Part shown: one piece after another, positions 1,482 through 52,592 of the stretch | Layout of the letters: every line of letters starts with the position of its first letter | Numbering within the stretch: the stretch's first letter is position 1 | Source: Alkaliphilus pronyensis | GTDB taxonomy: Bacteria; Bacillota; Clostridia; Peptostreptococcales; Natronincolaceae | Assembly (NCBI RefSeq): GCF_009017275.1 | Contig: NZ_WBZC01000003.1 | Span: 1-64,000 of the forward strand | DNA length: 64,000 nucleotides | Reading direction: 5' to 3' | Translations under genes and position numbers: made by a program | Notes under the pieces: model-generated | What the model was told of the DNA's origin: nothing | Database searches by the model: none | Seen by the model: the letters and a program-made list of their open reading frames with translations, nothing else

Positions 1482-1614
1482 TATAAAGAAAACTAAGTTC
1501 AAATAAGGCCTTTACTCCACTGAACTCTAGCTGTATATATTTAGAAGTTTGCGAATACCTATGTTCAGCTTAAGAAGGGGGAGCATTAGTTACTCCTCTG
1601 CGATTAATTGATCT
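1482..1614. repeat. Dispersed structured repeat, divergent copy
   Basis: This intergenic stretch aligns end to end with the repeats at 43681-43806 and 49833-49959. It shares the opening TATAAAGAAAAC, AGTTC...GAACTCTAG flanks of the first hairpin, CTTAAGAAG in the second hairpin and a decayed tail TTAGTTACTCCTCTGCGAT (TTAGTAACGCCGCTGAGAT in the intact copies). The hairpins are degraded, so this looks like an old copy. It fills most of the ~300-bp gap between the divergent phoH-like and MBL-fold genes. Confidence 0.7.
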
Positions 1615-43680: not shown

Positions 43681-43806
43681 TATAAAGGAAACTTAGTTCA
43701 GATGGAGTTTAACCCCACCTGAACTCTAGTTCCGTTTACTTTCTAGCTTGGCGGCACTTATCCCTCGCTTAAGAAGCGGATGTGTTAGTAACGCCGCTGA
43801 GATAAA
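43681..43806. repeat. Dispersed structured repeat, near-complete copy A
   Basis: Aligns along its whole length with the copy at 49833-49959 (about 80% by eye). First hairpin: AGTTCAGATGGAG with CCCCACCTGAACT, two A-C mismatches that become G-U pairs on the minus strand. Second part: GGCGGCACTTATC, hairpin around CGCTTAAGAAGCG, then TTAGTAACGCCGCTGAGATAA. GCGGC/GCCGC and TTATC/GATAA cross, so a pseudoknot is possible. It ends 15 bases before the trkA ATG, whose ribosome site GGAGG directly follows it. Confidence 0.8.
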
Positions 43807-43821
43807 ATGGAGGTTGTTTAA

Positions 43822-45228
43822 ATGTATGTTATTATTGTTGGAGCAGGTAAACTAGGGTATAAATTAGCAGAATCATTTTCCCATGTAAATAATAATGTTG
43901 TGATTGTAGATACAGATAACGGAGCTTTACAACGTGTAAGTAATCATATAGATTTACTCACGGTTAAAGCCAATGGTGTAAAGTTATCTGTTTTAGAAGA
44001 GTTAGGTGTAAAAAATGCTGATTTACTAATATCTGTAACAAGTAGTGATGAAACAAATATGTTAATTTGTACAACAGCAAAAAAGCTTGGCTGTAAAAGA
44101 GTTATTGCCCGTATTCGAAATCCAGAGTATGGTAATCAAATGGATTTTGTTAAAAATAAACTGGAAATAGATTACATTGCAAATCCTGAATTAGAGACAG
44201 CCAAAGAAATAACTAAATATTTACTGAAGGGCGATGCCATACACATGGAGGATTTTGCTCGAGGTAAAGTTGTTATGGCAGATTTCCGCGTAAATAGCCT
44301 TAACAATATGAAGGGTAAAAAGCTTAAAGAGCTTGAGATATCTAAACCTGTCTTAATTGTTGCTATATCAAGAGATGGTGAAATGATAATACCCCATGGT
44401 GATACTGAATTAACACAAAGAGATATTATATACGTTATTGGAGAGAAGGAAAATATTAATACCTTTTCTAAGTTTTGGGGCGCGCCTGTAGAACGAAAGC
44501 ATGTAAAAAAAGCTATGATATTAGGTGGGGGAAAGGCTGGATTCTATCTTGCAAGAAAGCTTATAGCTAGTGGAGTTTCAGTGAAAATAATTGAAAGAAA
44601 TAAAGAAAGATGTAAATATTTAGTGGAAGAACTCAATAATGCATTAGTAATACAAGGAGATGCTACAGATCAACAGCTTATTTTAGACGAAAACATTTCA
44701 GATATGGATGCTTTAATATTATTAACTGGCTATGATGAGGAAAATCTTCTTCTATCACTTTTAGGTAAAAAATACGGAGTCAGCAAAGTAATAGCTAAGG
44801 TTAGCAGACCAAATTATATACCAATTATTGAACAGCTGGGAATAGATGTGGCAATAAATCCTATAATGATAACAGCTGGTGGTATATTAAGGTATGTACA
44901 AGGTGGGAAGGTTGAATCCATTTCAATGCTATTGGGAGGACAGGCAGAGGTACTTGAAATAATTGCTCCAAATAATTCTAAAGTTATAGGAGTACCCTTA
45001 TCCAAGCTGGAGCTGCCAAAGGGAATTATAATTGGAGCTATAGTAGATAATGGTAAAGTTACTATTCCTAATGGAAATTCAATTATAAATCCAGGAAACC
45101 GCTTAGTTGTATTCTGTCTACAATCGGAGATAAGCTCACTAGATAAGTACTTTTATAGAACCAAAGGGGGACTACTAGATGAACTACAGAAGAGTTTTAA
45201 AGGTCTTAGGAAGTCTGCTTCTATTTGA
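43822..45228 (+). CDS. trkA: Trk potassium uptake regulatory protein TrkA
   Basis: A 468-residue cytosolic protein with two RCK (TrkA-N plus TrkA-C) units. The first NAD-binding Rossmann motif is VGAGKLGYKLAE at residue 6, the second LGGGKAGFYLARKL near 234; each is followed by a TrkA-C segment. It gates the TrkH channel in response to nucleotide. Its last 50 bases overlap trkH in another frame, so the two are translationally linked. No c-di-AMP riboswitch is seen upstream; the dispersed repeat occupies that place. Confidence 0.95.
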   Translation: MYVIIVGAGKLGYKLAESFSHVNNNVVIVDTDNGALQRVSNHIDLLTVKANGVKLSVLEELGVKNADLLISVTSSDETNMLICTTAKKLGCKRVIARIRNPEYGNQMDFVKNKLEIDYIANPELETAKEITKYLLKGDAIHMEDFARGKVVMADFRVNSLNNMKGKKLKELEISKPVLIVAISRDGEMIIPHGDTELTQRDIIYVIGEKENINTFSKFWGAPVERKHVKKAMILGGGKAGFYLARKLIASGVSVKIIERNKERCKYLVEELNNALVIQGDATDQQLILDENISDMDALILLTGYDEENLLLSLLGKKYGVSKVIAKVSRPNYIPIIEQLGIDVAINPIMITAGGILRYVQGGKVESISMLLGGQAEVLEIIAPNNSKVIGVPLSKLELPKGIIIGAIVDNGKVTIPNGNSIINPGNRLVVFCLQSEISSLDKYFYRTKGGLLDELQKSFKGLRKSASI

Positions 45229-46624
45229 AGCACTAACCTTAATTCCCCCCTTAGCAATATCTATTTATCATAATCAACATGATAGACAAGCATTTCTTTA
45301 TACAATTGCTATTATATTAGCCTTTAGTATACCGATGTCCTTGCTTCCGCAGAAATCCAATAGAATTAAAGCAAAGGAAGCCCTTTCAATTGTTACATTA
45401 GGCTGGCTTCTTGTAGCCTTTTTTGGATCTTTACCCTTTGTTTTTTCAGGCAGTATTCCATCTGTTATTGATGCATTCTTTGAAACGGTATCAGGTCTTA
45501 CCACAACGGGAGCAACAATAATAGAAGATATAGAGGTATTACCACGTGGAATATTGTTTTGGAGGTCTTTTACCCATTGGATAGGCGGCATGGGGATACT
45601 GGTATTGACATTAGCCATTTTACCTACTATAGGTGTTGGTGGATTTCAAATATTTAAGGCTGAAAGTCCAGGCCCTATTTCAGATAAGCTAGTACCTAAA
45701 ATGAAGGATACTGCGAAAATTTTGTATAGTGCCTATTTAGGAATAACCGTAATACAAACTGTTATGCTGTACTTTGGAGGACTATCACTATATGAAGCAT
45801 TGGTTCATACCTTTGGAACAGTAGGTACAGGAGGATTTTCTACTCGTAATGCAAGTATAGGAGCCTTTAATTATAGCAGCTATATAATTATGGTTATATC
45901 ATTTTTTATGATTGCTTCTGGTGTTAATTTCTCTTTATATTATGAGATGTATAAGGGACGTTGGAGAAATGTATTAAAGAACTCTGAGTTTAGAGCATAT
46001 ATGTCGATAATATTTATTAGCGTGCTATTAATAACAGTTAATTTGAATGGTTTGTATTCTTCAGTTTTTGAAACATTTAAGCATTCCCTGTTTCAAGTTG
46101 CATCCATTATAACTACCACTGGCTACACAACAGCAGATTTTGATCAATGGAATAGCTTTAGTAAAGCAATACTCTTCACCTTAATGTTTGTGGGTGGATG
46201 TGCTGGGTCAACCGGTGGTTCAATTAAGGTTATCAGATTAGTAATACTGTTTAAGCTAGTAAAGCGAGAGATTAAAAAAATACTACATCCTAATGCATAT
46301 GTGCCAATTCAAATAAATAAAAAAATGGTTTCTAATGATGTTGTAGCAAGCATAACAAGCTTTTTCTTTTTATATCTAGTTATTTTTGCAGTAGGCACCC
46401 TGCTTATTTCCTTAGAGGGAGTTGGTTTTATTACAGCTTCTAGTGCCGTAGCTGCAACATTAGGGAATATAGGTCCAGGCTTTGAAATGGTAGGACCTAC
46501 CATGACCTACAGCCACTTTTCTATTCCTAGTAAGCTTTTATTATCATTAATGATGTTATTTGGTAGACTTGAGCTATTTACTATTTTTGTTATGTTAATG
46601 CCTAACTTTTGGATAAATGAGTAA
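45179..46624 (+). CDS. trkH: Trk/Ktr potassium transporter membrane subunit
   Basis: A 481-residue membrane protein with the four pore-loop repeats of the TrkH/KtrB superfamily, seen as SGLTTTGATI, TVGTGGFST, ITTTGYTTAD and LGNIGPGFEMVGPT. About ten or more membrane helices. ATG 45179 follows AAAGGGGG within the trkA coding sequence and is well placed. With TrkA it takes up K+ using the membrane potential and ion coupling. Confidence 0.95.
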   Translation: MNYRRVLKVLGSLLLFEALTLIPPLAISIYHNQHDRQAFLYTIAIILAFSIPMSLLPQKSNRIKAKEALSIVTLGWLLVAFFGSLPFVFSGSIPSVIDAFFETVSGLTTTGATIIEDIEVLPRGILFWRSFTHWIGGMGILVLTLAILPTIGVGGFQIFKAESPGPISDKLVPKMKDTAKILYSAYLGITVIQTVMLYFGGLSLYEALVHTFGTVGTGGFSTRNASIGAFNYSSYIIMVISFFMIASGVNFSLYYEMYKGRWRNVLKNSEFRAYMSIIFISVLLITVNLNGLYSSVFETFKHSLFQVASIITTTGYTTADFDQWNSFSKAILFTLMFVGGCAGSTGGSIKVIRLVILFKLVKREIKKILHPNAYVPIQINKKMVSNDVVASITSFFFLYLVIFAVGTLLISLEGVGFITASSAVAATLGNIGPGFEMVGPTMTYSHFSIPSKLLLSLMMLFGRLELFTIFVMLMPNFWINE

Positions 46625-46835
46625 TCTATAGCTTAACCCCAAAAAGCAAATAGTAACTTGAGATACTAACTGTTATCTAGTCTTGTTTGTAGTTTTATAA
46701 CAAAAACAATAGTCAAAATTTGATAAATGTACACAAAATTGTACACATCGACATAAATCGACACATTACCCTTTGATATGATGCTATAATATTTGAAAGA
46801 TTCAAAATCCTATATAAATAAATACCTATGAAGAT

Positions 46836-46913
46836 AATGGCAAACTTTTTGAAAGAAAAGGACGCAAAGCTATGGGTCTAAGGGATAAAATATCCTATGA
46901 CAGCCAAGTTGCC
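46836..46913 (+). ncRNA. c-di-GMP-I (GEMM) riboswitch
   Basis: The sequence has GGCAAAC near 46839, GGACGCAAAGC at 46860-46870, the GGGTCTAAGG stretch, an ATCCTATGACAGCCAAG segment and closing GTTGCC, in the order and spacing of the GEMM-I consensus. GGCAA at the start pairs with TTGCC at the end (P1). It lies upstream of a chemoreceptor gene with a terminator directly downstream, so c-di-GMP probably controls its transcription. The rest of 46625-47097 has no gene. Confidence 0.93.
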
Positions 46914-46934
46914 TAATTAGATTATGCAATTTTG

Positions 46935-46961
46935 GAGACGACCTATCGTCTCTTTCTTTTT
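46935..46961 (+). terminator. Expression-platform terminator of the c-di-GMP riboswitch
   Basis: GAGACGA and TCGTCTC form a 7-bp stem with loop CCTA, followed by TTTCTTTTT. It sits 22 bases after the aptamer. Whether ligand favours or prevents it cannot be decided by eye. Confidence 0.8.
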
Positions 46962-47097
46962 ACATATTTTAATTCTAATAGTTTAAGCTTTTTTATGTGC
47001 TTAAGAAGGGAGCTGAGGGCATTCATTGAATTTGAGGTAGTAAATAACAGGAAAACGTATACCCATTTAATTATTACAAAGCTAGGAGTGAATAATA

Positions 47098-49089
47098 TTG
47101 AAAAAATTGAAGTTTAGAATTGCTTTAGCCTTTACACTAATAAGCCTGTTACTATTTTTAACCACAGGCGTAGCTGCATCCTTATTCGCAAAGGGGTCAT
47201 TAATTGATGTTTCTGAAATTCTAAGTAATGAAGTGGTAAACTCTAATGCTGATACTATATCAGAGTTCTTAGCTGCCCGTATAAGTGAGCTAAAGCATAT
47301 AGCACAGTATGATGACTTAAAAGACATGAATCTTGAAGAATCAATGGATTATCTTATTCGTGTCGCTGAGGACAGTGAATATGAATCTATAGCCTTAGTT
47401 AAGCCTAACGGACAGGCATGGGCAACAACTGGTGCAACCTTAGACCTATCAAAAAGTCCCTATATGAAGGAGATTTTTGAAAATGGAGCAAGCAACTATG
47501 TTTCCGATCCATTTCTAGCAAAGTCTACAGGTAGCATTATTGTTTCAGTAGCTCAGGTTATTGTTGATGATTATGGAAATAAGGTTGGTGTTTTATCAGC
47601 AGCATTAACATTAGACAAAATAACAGAAATATCAGAGGCCATTAATATCGAAGACAAGGGCTTTGGCTGGATTATAAATCAAAAGGGTTTAATAATAGCC
47701 CATAGGAATCCTGAGGTAGCAATGATAGAGGATATTGTTGACTACGAGGATGGAGTTTATAAGGAGCTAAAGGCTTATAAAGATGAGTTGTTTGAAAATC
47801 CCTTCGGTGTAATAGAACCAACTATAAATGGACAAGAGGTTTATCTTTTTTATTCAGCAATAGATAATACACAAAATTGGAGGCTAGTGGTGGAAATACC
47901 CAAGGGTGCTCTTTTAAGTAATATATCAGCCTTAAATAATAATCTTGGTATGCTAATTTTAGTAATAGTACTTATAATGACTACTGCTGCATTCTTAATC
48001 TCTAATATTATAACAAAGCCTATTACTGAAATAACAAAATATAGTGAAAAGGTTTCAAAGCTAGACTTTACAGACGATATTCCTAAAAAGCTATTAGATC
48101 GTAAGGATGAAATCGGGGCCCTATCAGTATCCTTTAACAATATTCTACTTAATTTACGGAGCTTTATAAAGAATATTGCAGAAAACTCCCAGTACTTGAC
48201 AGCCTCATCACAGCAATTAACGGAAACTAGCCAACAATCAACTATGGCAGCAGAAGAGGTTGCTAAAACAATTGAAGAAATAGCGAGGGGGGCCAATGAT
48301 CAAGCTAAAGACACTGAAAAAGGAGCTTTAAATATTGATGAGCTTGGAAGGCTTATTGAAAAGGATCAGAACTATATGAAGAAGCTGAATTCCTCAGTTG
48401 AAGATGTATCTAAGCTTAAAGAGGCTGGTTTAGGAATTGTACAAGACTTGGTGGAAAAAACAATGGCAAGCAATAATGCCACCAAAGAGGTTCATGATAT
48501 TATTCAAAACACAAATAAAAGTGCTGAAAGAATAGAAAATGCAAGTGAAATGATTAAAAGCATTGCTGCACAAACTAATCTCTTAGCCCTAAATGCTGCT
48601 ATAGAGGCTGCTAGAGCAGGTGAAGCAGGAAAAGGATTTGCAGTAGTTGCGGAGGAAATAAGAAAGCTGGCAGAGCAATCCAATGATTTTACAGAGGAAA
48701 TATCTAAAATTATTAAAGAATTAAGTATAAAAACCCTAGAGGCTGTTAGCACCATGAAGGATGTAGGAGACATAGTTACCTCTCAATCTGAGAGTGTAGA
48801 AAGCACCAACAAAAAGTTTGAGGGTATATCAAAGGCAATAGAGGACATTAAAATAATAATTGAAGAGCTTAACCTATCTGGTAAAGAGATGGATAGTAAG
48901 AAGAATGATATTATTACCATTATCCAAAACCTATCTGCTATTTCAGAGGAAAATGCAGCTGGGACTCAGGAGGCCTCTGCTTCAGTAGAGGAGCAAACGG
49001 CATCTATGGAGGAAATTGCCAACGCAAGTGAGGCTTTGGCTAAGCTAGCTCAAGAAATGCAAGCTAATATTTCAAAATTTAAATGCTAA
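47098..49089 (+). CDS. Methyl-accepting chemotaxis protein with dCache sensor
   Basis: A 663-residue chemoreceptor. TM1 at about 8-30, an external dCache-type domain (~35-275, with [16 protein letters not shown] and [16 protein letters not shown]), TM2 at about 282-302, HAMP ([18 protein letters not shown]), then the signalling domain with the hairpin tip [20 protein letters not shown] near residues 500-520. TTG start behind AGGAGTG. Its leader carries a c-di-GMP-I riboswitch, tying taxis to the sessile/motile second messenger. No chemotaxis or flagellar genes are adjacent. The ligand is unknown. Confidence 0.95.
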
Positions 49090-49091
49090 TA

Positions 49092-49128
49092 ATTAATGTC
49101 GTGGGGACTGTGTCCCCACGACATTAAT
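49092..49128. terminator. Perfect 16-bp palindrome between convergent genes
   Basis: ATTAATGTCGTGGGGA pairs perfectly with TCCCCACGACATTAAT around loop CTGTG. It sits between the chemoreceptor stop and the carbonic-anhydrase-like stop and likely serves as a bidirectional terminator, although there is no long T-run. It is far richer in GC than the surroundings and could be a dispersed palindrome. Confidence 0.65.
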
Positions 49129-49591
49129 ATAATCTACTAAGCTTTAACTTTTTTATTTGAGCTAACTGGTTTATAGAAACAGGTGAATATCTAAAAGAAT
49201 ATTGACAAGCCACCCGATTAACCTTCCAATTCTCATCCACCCATAGGCCTATTACTTCAACATCCCTATTCCAGGCTTCAACATTTCTTACCGCTTGTAA
49301 AATCTGTTTAATTTGAGTATCTTCATTTGCAGGATTACCACCACAGTCATAGTGTCCAACTATTGCTATTACCTTAGAGTTATGCTTTTCAATTGAAATT
49401 GCTACTCGTTTCTTAATAGAATCTACAGTTAATTTATTTGTGTATTCTGCTAAAATTTTGTTTGGCCCTGCCTCAGTAATCATATCTACAAAGTCTGCTC
49501 CATACTCACTCTTCATAAAATCAATTACAGGCTTTTGTGTCCTACCATCCATGCAGTTAATTGTAGTTACAAACCTATCTGTCATATTCAT
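49124..49591 (-). CDS. Beta-carbonic-anhydrase-like protein
   Basis: A 155-residue soluble protein. INCMDGRTQKPV near residue 13 gives the CxDxR zinc and catalytic motif, and IVGHYDCGGNP near 80 gives HxxC, together the three zinc ligands and dyad of beta-carbonic anhydrases. It is shorter than typical enzymes (~200 residues) and lacks part of the usual C-terminal helix region, so activity is likely but not certain. Monocistronic, ending in the palindrome at 49092. The 5' region 49592-49832 holds a hairpin at 49677. Confidence 0.8.
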   Translation of the reverse strand: MNMTDRFVTTINCMDGRTQKPVIDFMKSEYGADFVDMITEAGPNKILAEYTNKLTVDSIKKRVAISIEKHNSKVIAIVGHYDCGGNPANEDTQIKQILQAVRNVEAWNRDVEVIGLWVDENWKVNRVACQYSFRYSPVSINQLAQIKKLKLSRLY

Positions 49592-49676
49592 GTTATAAAG
49601 TCCTCCATAATTATGTAATTAACTATAATTATATGAGTTATTAATTCTCAATGCAATAAAAACTTGTGGAAGAAAC

Positions 49677-49713
49677 GGGGTTATTGACATTTTTGTTAGT
49701 TGTCAACAACCCC
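49677..49713. other. Hairpin upstream of carbonic-anhydrase-like gene
   Basis: GGGGTTATTGACA pairs with TGTCAACAACCCC (12 of 13); the one A-C mismatch becomes G-U on the minus strand. Further TTGACATG and CCTGACATG pieces follow to 49755. It may be a minus-strand RNA structure or a remnant repeat. No function assigned. Confidence 0.4.
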
Positions 49714-49832
49714 ATCCCCATGATATGCTGTTGACATGTTGGTCACCCCTGACATGAAGAGATAAATTTAACCATTATGAATCTTTAAAGTGATTAATGA
49801 AGGATTTCAATAGGAGATTAGAGAAATATTAC

Positions 49833-49959
49833 TATAAAGAAAACTTAGTTCAGATGGAGTTAAAACTCCATCCGAACTCTAGTTGCCCTTATTTCGAAGC
49901 TTGGCGGCACTTATCTCCCGCTTAAGAAGCGGGAGTGTTAGTAACGCCGCTGAGATAAA
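49833..49959. repeat. Dispersed structured repeat, complete copy B
   Basis: This is the best-preserved copy. Hairpin one: AGTTCAGATGGAGT, loop TAAA, ACTCCATCCGAACT, with one A-C mismatch that is G-U on the minus strand. Hairpin two: CTCCCGCTT, loop AAG, AAGCGGGAG, perfect. GCGGC (49904-49908) can pair with GCCGC and TTATCTC with GAGATAA; these cross, giving a possible pseudoknot. It ends 34 bases before the gene at 49994. There is no open reading frame inside. Confidence 0.82.
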
Positions 49960-50662: not shown

Positions 50663-50769
50663 TAACCCCGTCCCTCCCCCACCTTTTAGGTTGATAGTAT
50701 CAATGATATAAGATAAAATAGTTTAGTAAAAAGCTTGTTTTATTAAAAATTTCATTTTGCTACTTATCT

Positions 50770-50975
50770 AGGTTCTTTGAAGTAATTCAAGGATTAATAG
50801 GGAATGGAGTGAAAATCTCCAACGGTCCGGCCACTGTAAGTGGGGAGAAATTCTTTTGTTAGCCACTGGAAAACTGGGAAGGCAAAGAATTAGCTTTGAT
50901 CCACAAGTCAGGAGACCTGCCAAGGTAATTATGCATACAACCTTCCGAGGAAAGGAAAGTGCAGGATAATGATAT
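50770..50975 (+). ncRNA. Cobalamin riboswitch (upstream of cbiK)
   Basis: Contains the class hallmarks in order: AATAGGGAATGGAGTGAAAATCTCC-type P3/P4 start, GGTCCGGCCACTGTAAG, and AAGTCAGGAGACCTGCC. GCCACTGT with the CAAGTCAGGAGACC box is diagnostic for B12 aptamers. It should turn off cbiK and the ferredoxin gene when cobalamin is plentiful. Bases 50663-50769 show no gene. Confidence 0.93.
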
Positions 50976-52234: not shown

Positions 52235-52362
52235 ACATGGTAGAATTAATAGTTTAAAATCAGCTAAATGTTTAATAAATAAAACGTGCTATGTATAAAT
52301 AAAGCAGAGTTTATAAACTAGTTTTATTGACATATTGTTGCTGTTTAACTATAATTAAGTTA

Positions 52363-52404
52363 GCTAAGACAAGGCTTTATGTCTTGCTTTGAAAAGTAAA
52401 TATG
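52363..52404. repeat. Direct repeat flanking B12 riboswitch, copy 1
   Basis: GCTAAGACA...ATGTCTTGCTTTGAAAAGTAAATATG resembles the stretch at 52657-52701. It forms a small hairpin (AAGACA/TGTCTT) at the start of the riboswitch region. Confidence 0.5.
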
Positions 52405-52592
52405 TAATAGGGAAGTTGGTGAAAATCCAACACGGGGCCGCCACTGTAAAGGGGAGCGTCTTGCAAATACCACTGTTCATTATTAAGAGTTTAGTGATAA
52501 TGAATGGGAAGGTGCATTAACGCTGAGAACCTAAGTCAGGATACCTATTGTCTGTTTATGCTCGCGAGCCTGAGCATGGTAGGACGATAGTG
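52375..52592 (+). ncRNA. Cobalamin riboswitch (upstream of btuF)
   Basis: AATAGGGAAGTTGGTGAAAATCC, CGGGGCCGCCACTGTAAAGGGG and CTAAGTCAGGATACCTATT follow in the B12-riboswitch order, with a long peripheral hairpin (AATACCACTG to TAATGAATGGG) between. The 3' segment TGCTCGCGAGCCTGAGCATGG is likely the loop that kisses the core. It precedes btuFCD and the cbi operon. The rest of 52235-52374 shows no gene. Confidence 0.93.

Follow-up and report, generated by a model that had tools for sequence, protein, structure and literature searches.

A short mobile DNA element with two palindromes in Alkaliphilus pronyensis and other Clostridia

Here, we analyse a repeat that occurs three times in a 64,000-nucleotide stretch of Alkaliphilus pronyensis DNA (contig NZ_WBZC01000003.1, positions 1 to 64,000; below, the window) and many more times elsewhere in the genome. 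We will show that it is a mobile non-coding DNA element, of whose mobility there is hardly any doubt. It is probably a short non-autonomous element of the PATE kind (palindrome-associated transposable element). The family is new and widespread, and its kind has already been described.

Copies, exact ends and target site

An earlier note, made from the letters of the window, had placed two near-complete copies at 43681-43806 and 49833-49959, and a divergent one at 1482-1614, each just upstream of an unrelated gene in the same orientation. The two near-complete copies are confirmed on the + strand, and the third is real as well, with a score of 33 bits (E 4e-5) against a covariance model from other species. 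Each of the three lies upstream of an ORF on the + strand, and the genes are indeed unrelated: a TrkA-like ORF of 468 aa (start 43822) for copy 1, a membrane protein of 222 aa (start 49994) for copy 2 and an MBL-fold-like ORF (start 1688) for copy 3. As for the boundaries, the stretch from TAAAG to GAGA stands as the unit proper, while the outer TA and TAAA that had been included belong to the target site. The features are the following.

49835..49955, + strand: copy 2, element proper, 121 bp, TAAAG...CTGAGA, nearly intact; ends from the empty-site comparison
49956..49959, + strand: TAAA of the host, forming the right half of target A^TAAA; formerly counted as repeat
49842..49884, + strand: hairpin 1 of copy 2, left subterminal palindrome (fold; covariation)
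49889..49958, + strand: hairpin 2 of copy 2, right subterminal palindrome (fold; covariation)
43683..43802, + strand: copy 1, element proper, 120 bp; the TrkA-like ORF (43822) begins some 16-19 nt further downstream
43803..43806, + strand: TAAA, half of the target, to the right of copy 1
1484..1603, + strand: copy 3, decayed; the fold is gone, while the head and some of hairpin 1 can still be recognised

Hairpin 2 of copy 2 extends to the right end and pairs partly with the target TAA. The window also holds a c-di-GMP-I riboswitch (46829-46916) and two cobalamin riboswitches (50753-50938 and 52353-52566).

The exact unit follows from an empty site. One copy (L018, G000:C75:4664-4790) interrupts the coding sequence of a RAYT (REP-associated tyrosine transposase), and a second RAYT gene of the genome, a paralogue that has 90% identity to it over 501 aligned columns and lacks the element, is uninterrupted across this position, CAAGATAGATA running directly into TAAAAGTGAAG. 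The paralogue is thus an exact empty site, and exactly 121 bp (TAAAG...GAGA) have been added at A^TAAA. It is important to point out that this case alone could be read as a 4-bp duplication of TAAA. Subfamilies in relatives that have other heads, TCAAG or TTGAACG, still carry TAAA on the right, which identifies TAAA as target and not as a duplication; the same subfamilies exclude a duplication of TA or ATAA.

Both ends are sharp across 64 copies, and no direct repeats above shuffles were found in the flanks of these copies. In the cleanest parse, A precedes the element in 51 of the 58 scored copies and TAAA comes after it in 47, that is, a fixed short target lies beside the insertion, as for IS200/IS605-type elements. 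The left end, TAAAGAAAAC, does not match the inverted right end, TCTCAGCGGC, and the terminal inverted repeats that characterize a classical MITE (DDE transposase) are therefore absent. Perfect or near-perfect head-to-tail tandem copies are found in relatives, which is to be expected if every junction recreates the target A^TAAA.

Using a chimaeric query of neighbour-protein pieces, we located the orthologous regions in a same-genus genome, where many of the sites are empty or near-empty of the element; some intergenic alignments at these sites are poor and were excluded as evidence for the exact ends. Insertion can also rewrite gene ends. The protein upstream of locus L057 ends in EAEKAIKKT (stop) with the element and in EAEKAIEGSSKNTNEEELS (stop) without it, its C-terminus changing from EGSSKNTNEEELS (stop) to KKT (stop), and the rsmB, ksgA and acyl-carrier-protein genes of the host end in or beside the element. 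The rsmB-rlmN junction of Alkaliphilus peptidifermentans, the closest named relative by RsmB (72% identity to the host protein), was considered as a further clean empty site and set aside as weak, ten head-like bases lying also 3' of the copy. At loci L002 and L040, 10-12 bases of the element head (AAAGAAAACT) recur in the right flank, which may reflect coincidence, a second copy that is truncated, or a target that resembles the head.

In the host genome (3.06 Mb) there are about 80 tail-bearing copies and about 20 tail-less ones. The 22-nt tail has 79 matches with at most three mismatches over the whole genome, compared to none for the reversed control pattern, and the repeat family is far beyond chance. 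The 20-nt head has 88 matches, and a recognisable head is also present in 64 of the tail-bearing copies. The copies are nearly all intergenic or at gene ends, in both orientations. In one relative (G002), near-identical copies occupy many sites, the mark of a recent burst.

A covariance model of seven copies from related genera finds matches in 20 of the 59 other near genomes, at least 57 copies being present in three of them. Among 290 other genomes taken from the class Clostridia, 10 have matches, several of these multi-copy. Relatives of the repeat are thus patchy through the class. The earlier note had proposed just such a family-wide search, and its outcome is that the copies are not confined to the window and that covariation between lineages is strong (see below). 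That note had also left three possibilities side by side, among which the mobile non-autonomous element is borne out by the empty sites, the sharp ends, the tandem arrays and the recent burst in a relative.

Two further observations were made among the relatives. A decayed copy (loci L093 and L101) recurs, with near-identical flanks, in G008, a genome of another genus, which suggests that the region has been transferred. Loci L119 and L123, from relatives in genus g7, are longer forms in which the two hairpins are separated by about 70-90 additional nt; both share AAACGACTTTTATT.

Fold, covariation and gene context

Copies 1 and 2 of the window fold into two hairpins, with z scores of -6.7 and -3.1 relative to shuffles, and copies in relatives fold down to z -9.0. 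In copy 3 the fold is absent (z +0.94). Between lineages, 35 of 40 pairs have changed on both sides, and 91.4% of the cells in the diverse alignment are paired, above all 500 shuffles and slid versions, in an alignment that was fitted to the covariance model and is hence somewhat favourable to pairing. Hairpin 1 covaries also on an unfitted MAFFT alignment. Within the host genome the picture is a different one: among 58 copies, 175 stem changes are broken pairs, 77 are one-sided with the pair kept and 12 are compensated, about as random substitution would give. The suggestion that the hairpin arms vary while the fold is kept is accordingly right between species and wrong among the window copies: copy 3 has lost its fold, and stem changes among the copies of the host genome mostly break pairs. 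Covariation between lineages together with uncompensated decay within a genome suggests that the structure matters for spreading and not at each site; selection seems to act on the structure in the spreading lineage and not on the inserted copies. A count of RNA-strand asymmetry is even, with 30 G-U against 34 A-C cells, which does not discriminate, as the sampled copies are themselves decayed.

We now turn to the possibility that the repeat is a cis-regulatory or small RNA family with a common function, residing in the 5' leaders of many genes. The strong fold and the covariation would fit such a family, and so would the gene context. Of the 75 scored copies, 54 have a downstream gene on the same strand (p = 1.8e-4), and where a copy lies between co-directional genes, sense copies outnumber antisense ones by 33 to 13, counts that are approximate because the genes were called as simple ORF choices. 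Part of this sense excess is explained by the target, however, as the sense strand there has 1.43 times as many ATAAA sites as the antisense strand, which leaves a marginal residual bias (p about 0.05). Furthermore, the neighbour genes are unrelated, about a quarter of the copies face no co-oriented gene, some copies interrupt coding sequences, and the stem changes in host copies are mostly unpaired, at about the chance level. No Rfam family matches the repeat at gathering or lax thresholds, in line with the earlier remark that no named RNA fits. We therefore regard an RNA family as very improbable, and the regulatory RNA that had been the second of the three possibilities is not supported, in view of the unrelated neighbours, the presence of both orientations and the uncompensated decay of the stems.

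Replication-strand bias was considered as a cause of the co-orientation with genes, and is not significant, the orientation of the copies agreeing with GC skew in 40 of 68 cases (p = 0.18). A blastn search of phage and plasmid records with a host copy and a relative's copy gave no match, and a literature search with sequence strings of the repeat gave a single match, which is unrelated.

Copying via RNA, as by a SINE-like retro-element, is another option. The repeat is structured and some copies are truncated only at the 5' side; 3'-side truncations and internal deletions are, on the other hand, about equally common, and there is neither a poly(A) tail nor a target duplication. The chance that the repeat is a retro-element is thus slimmer still.

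Known systems and the mobilising enzyme

By definition, a PATE lacks terminal inverted repeats, carries a palindrome a short way in from each terminus, makes no target duplication and is too short for a transposase; a further hallmark is that the palindromes are related to those of IS605-type transposons (PMC3119063). The first four properties are found here: the element has no terminal inverted repeats, has palindromes near both ends, makes no duplication and, at 121 bp, is too short to encode a transposase, and it is mobile. Like it, the published IS200/IS605 elements and PATEs lack inverted repeats and duplication, use a short fixed target and have subterminal palindromes (PMC7290912, PMC3119063). 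With the PATEs of Haloquadratum walsbyi the element has in common that copies are numerous, that internal deletions look as if mediated by repeats, and that small repeats are nested in the palindromes (PMC3119063). It differs from them in being bacterial (Clostridia) and not haloarchaeal, and in that its two palindromes are unlike each other; also, the haloarchaeal PATEs match IS605-type parents, whereas no parent with the same ends was found for the present element.

Elements of the IS200/IS605 family (IS608, ISDra2) share with it the subterminal hairpins, the lack of inverted repeats and of duplication, and insertion beside a fixed tetranucleotide, which reads TTTA^ on the opposite strand. 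Viewed from that strand, hairpin 2, with its stem, asymmetric loop and C-rich tip, resembles the left-end hairpins of IS200/IS605 elements in relatives, a likeness judged by eye and of architecture only. Unlike these elements, ours carries no tnpA or tnpB, has no sequence match at the ends and shows only a weak replication-strand bias, and no convincing guide tetranucleotide was identified at the feet of the hairpins. REP/REPIN sequences with their RAYTs are likewise intergenic, palindromic and of high copy number, and RAYT genes are present in the host genome, one of them with a copy inside it; here, however, no GTAG or CGTC tag is seen, the unit does not consist of two copies in inverted orientation, and the host RAYTs seem to have other ends. 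ERIC/RU-1 (127 bp), RUP, BOX and Correia-type repeats are similar in size class, intergenic dispersal and absence of a transposase, but their sequences are not known to be related to that of the element. ERIC is one long palindrome, and RUP and Correia elements have terminal inverted repeats and a TA duplication.

When 67 loci, 66 of them Y1-transposase loci, were searched with the element model, a copy was found nearby in only two, the element was at both ends of the transposase in none, and at none of the 67 did the element ends match IS605-type ends in sequence. The intact Y1 genes of the host are RAYT-like and seem to carry other ends, GGGACGGTTC. The element does not lie on both flanks of a RAYT gene, as it would in a REPIN/RAYT system, and the host RAYT genes were rejected as parents on these two grounds. 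Four RAYT genes (L146-L149; G000 C47, C22, C12 and C27) have GGGACGGTTCTTGTG-type inverted sequences on either side, apparently the ends that belong to them. The sole TnpB-family match in the host genome belongs to an IS607-type element, for which no connection with the repeat is visible, and the last of the three earlier possibilities, a transposon-associated guide-RNA-like end, finds no footing. Other neighbour genes were considered as hidden partners, and only common housekeeping families and RAYTs recur among them.

A single-strand mechanism, with a Y1 HUH transposase acting in trans, is our best guess, held at about even confidence, because the element agrees with the definition of a PATE, resembles IS605 elements by eye and has no partner locus among those searched. 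In this mechanism, the two palindromes would fold on single-stranded DNA and be bound by a Y1 HUH transposase (IS200/IS605- or RAYT-type) from another element; the enzyme would then cut the element ends and insert the piece beside the tetranucleotide (TTTA on the opposite strand). The inserted copies would have no common function and would decay by substitutions and internal deletions. Several points speak against the Y1 mechanism: no autonomous partner with the element's ends was found, the intact Y1 genes of the host seem to carry other ends, no convincing guide tetranucleotide was identified, the likeness to IS605 ends is architectural, and the agreement with GC skew is weak (40/68); for IS608, a lagging-strand orientation bias has been reported.

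The missing partner and the weak strand bias also favour mobilisation by an enzyme of another type, for example a recombinase of the serine or tyrosine class that acts on a circular form, or an enzyme of the rolling-circle kind (IS91/Helitron-like). The palindromes would in that case be protein-binding sites or replication signals, and the insertion between A and T of ATAAA and the head-to-tail tandems also fit a circular intermediate. On the opposing side, 25 genomes out of the 27 searched have Y1_Tnp matches, and the remaining ones (G003 and G014) are also without a match to the element model, a co-occurrence of little weight since such genes are too common in Clostridia. We consider a non-Y1 enzyme possible, and rather unlikely.

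A nested repeat and what the family means

In the related genomes G002 and G010, the element itself contains a 62-nt repeat, AAGTAGACAACCGAAAG...GTTTATCTAT, at either of two places. One lies within hairpin 1, following head position 20, and the other is the hairpin 2 loop. G006 has related inserts, and the repeat sometimes forms a tandem pair (loci L301-L303, L311, L318-L320, L296, L115, L120 and L368-L397; G002, G006 and G010). Whole-genome searches give 73 matches in G002, 14 in G010 and none in the host genome. Of 30 fetched loci, 26 are in or beside the element, the four exceptions being partial matches in G010. Sixteen of the 30 are the top G002 copies, which have probably spread together with the element and do not, then, represent independent insertions. 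That the 62-nt repeat is found at two positions, and in two genomes, speaks for at least a few independent events.

In Haloquadratum, the palindromes of PATEs and of IS605-type transposons are insertion sites for SMR-A repeats (PMC3119063), and the 62-nt repeat is nested in palindromes in the same way. The two differ in length, SMR-A being about 110 bp, and their organisms are unrelated. The relation between PATEs and SMR-A has so far been described in haloarchaea, and the nested repeat offers a counterpart in bacteria.

A broader reading, which we offer tentatively, is that the family represents an ancient Clostridia clade of single-strand-type non-autonomous elements, in which the palindromes change sequence and keep pairing, the transposases share no ends with the elements, and a hyperparasite of their own targets the palindromes. 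If true, this two-tier system arose independently of the haloarchaeal pair. The structure of the element covaries between species and could be mistaken for a structured regulatory RNA, which is a warning for RNA-motif discovery: covariation by itself is no proof of a cellular RNA function. In many Clostridia, a previously unannotated repeat fills intergenic space and rewrites gene ends, and the nested pair offers a way to ask which enzyme moves the element or the 62-nt repeat.
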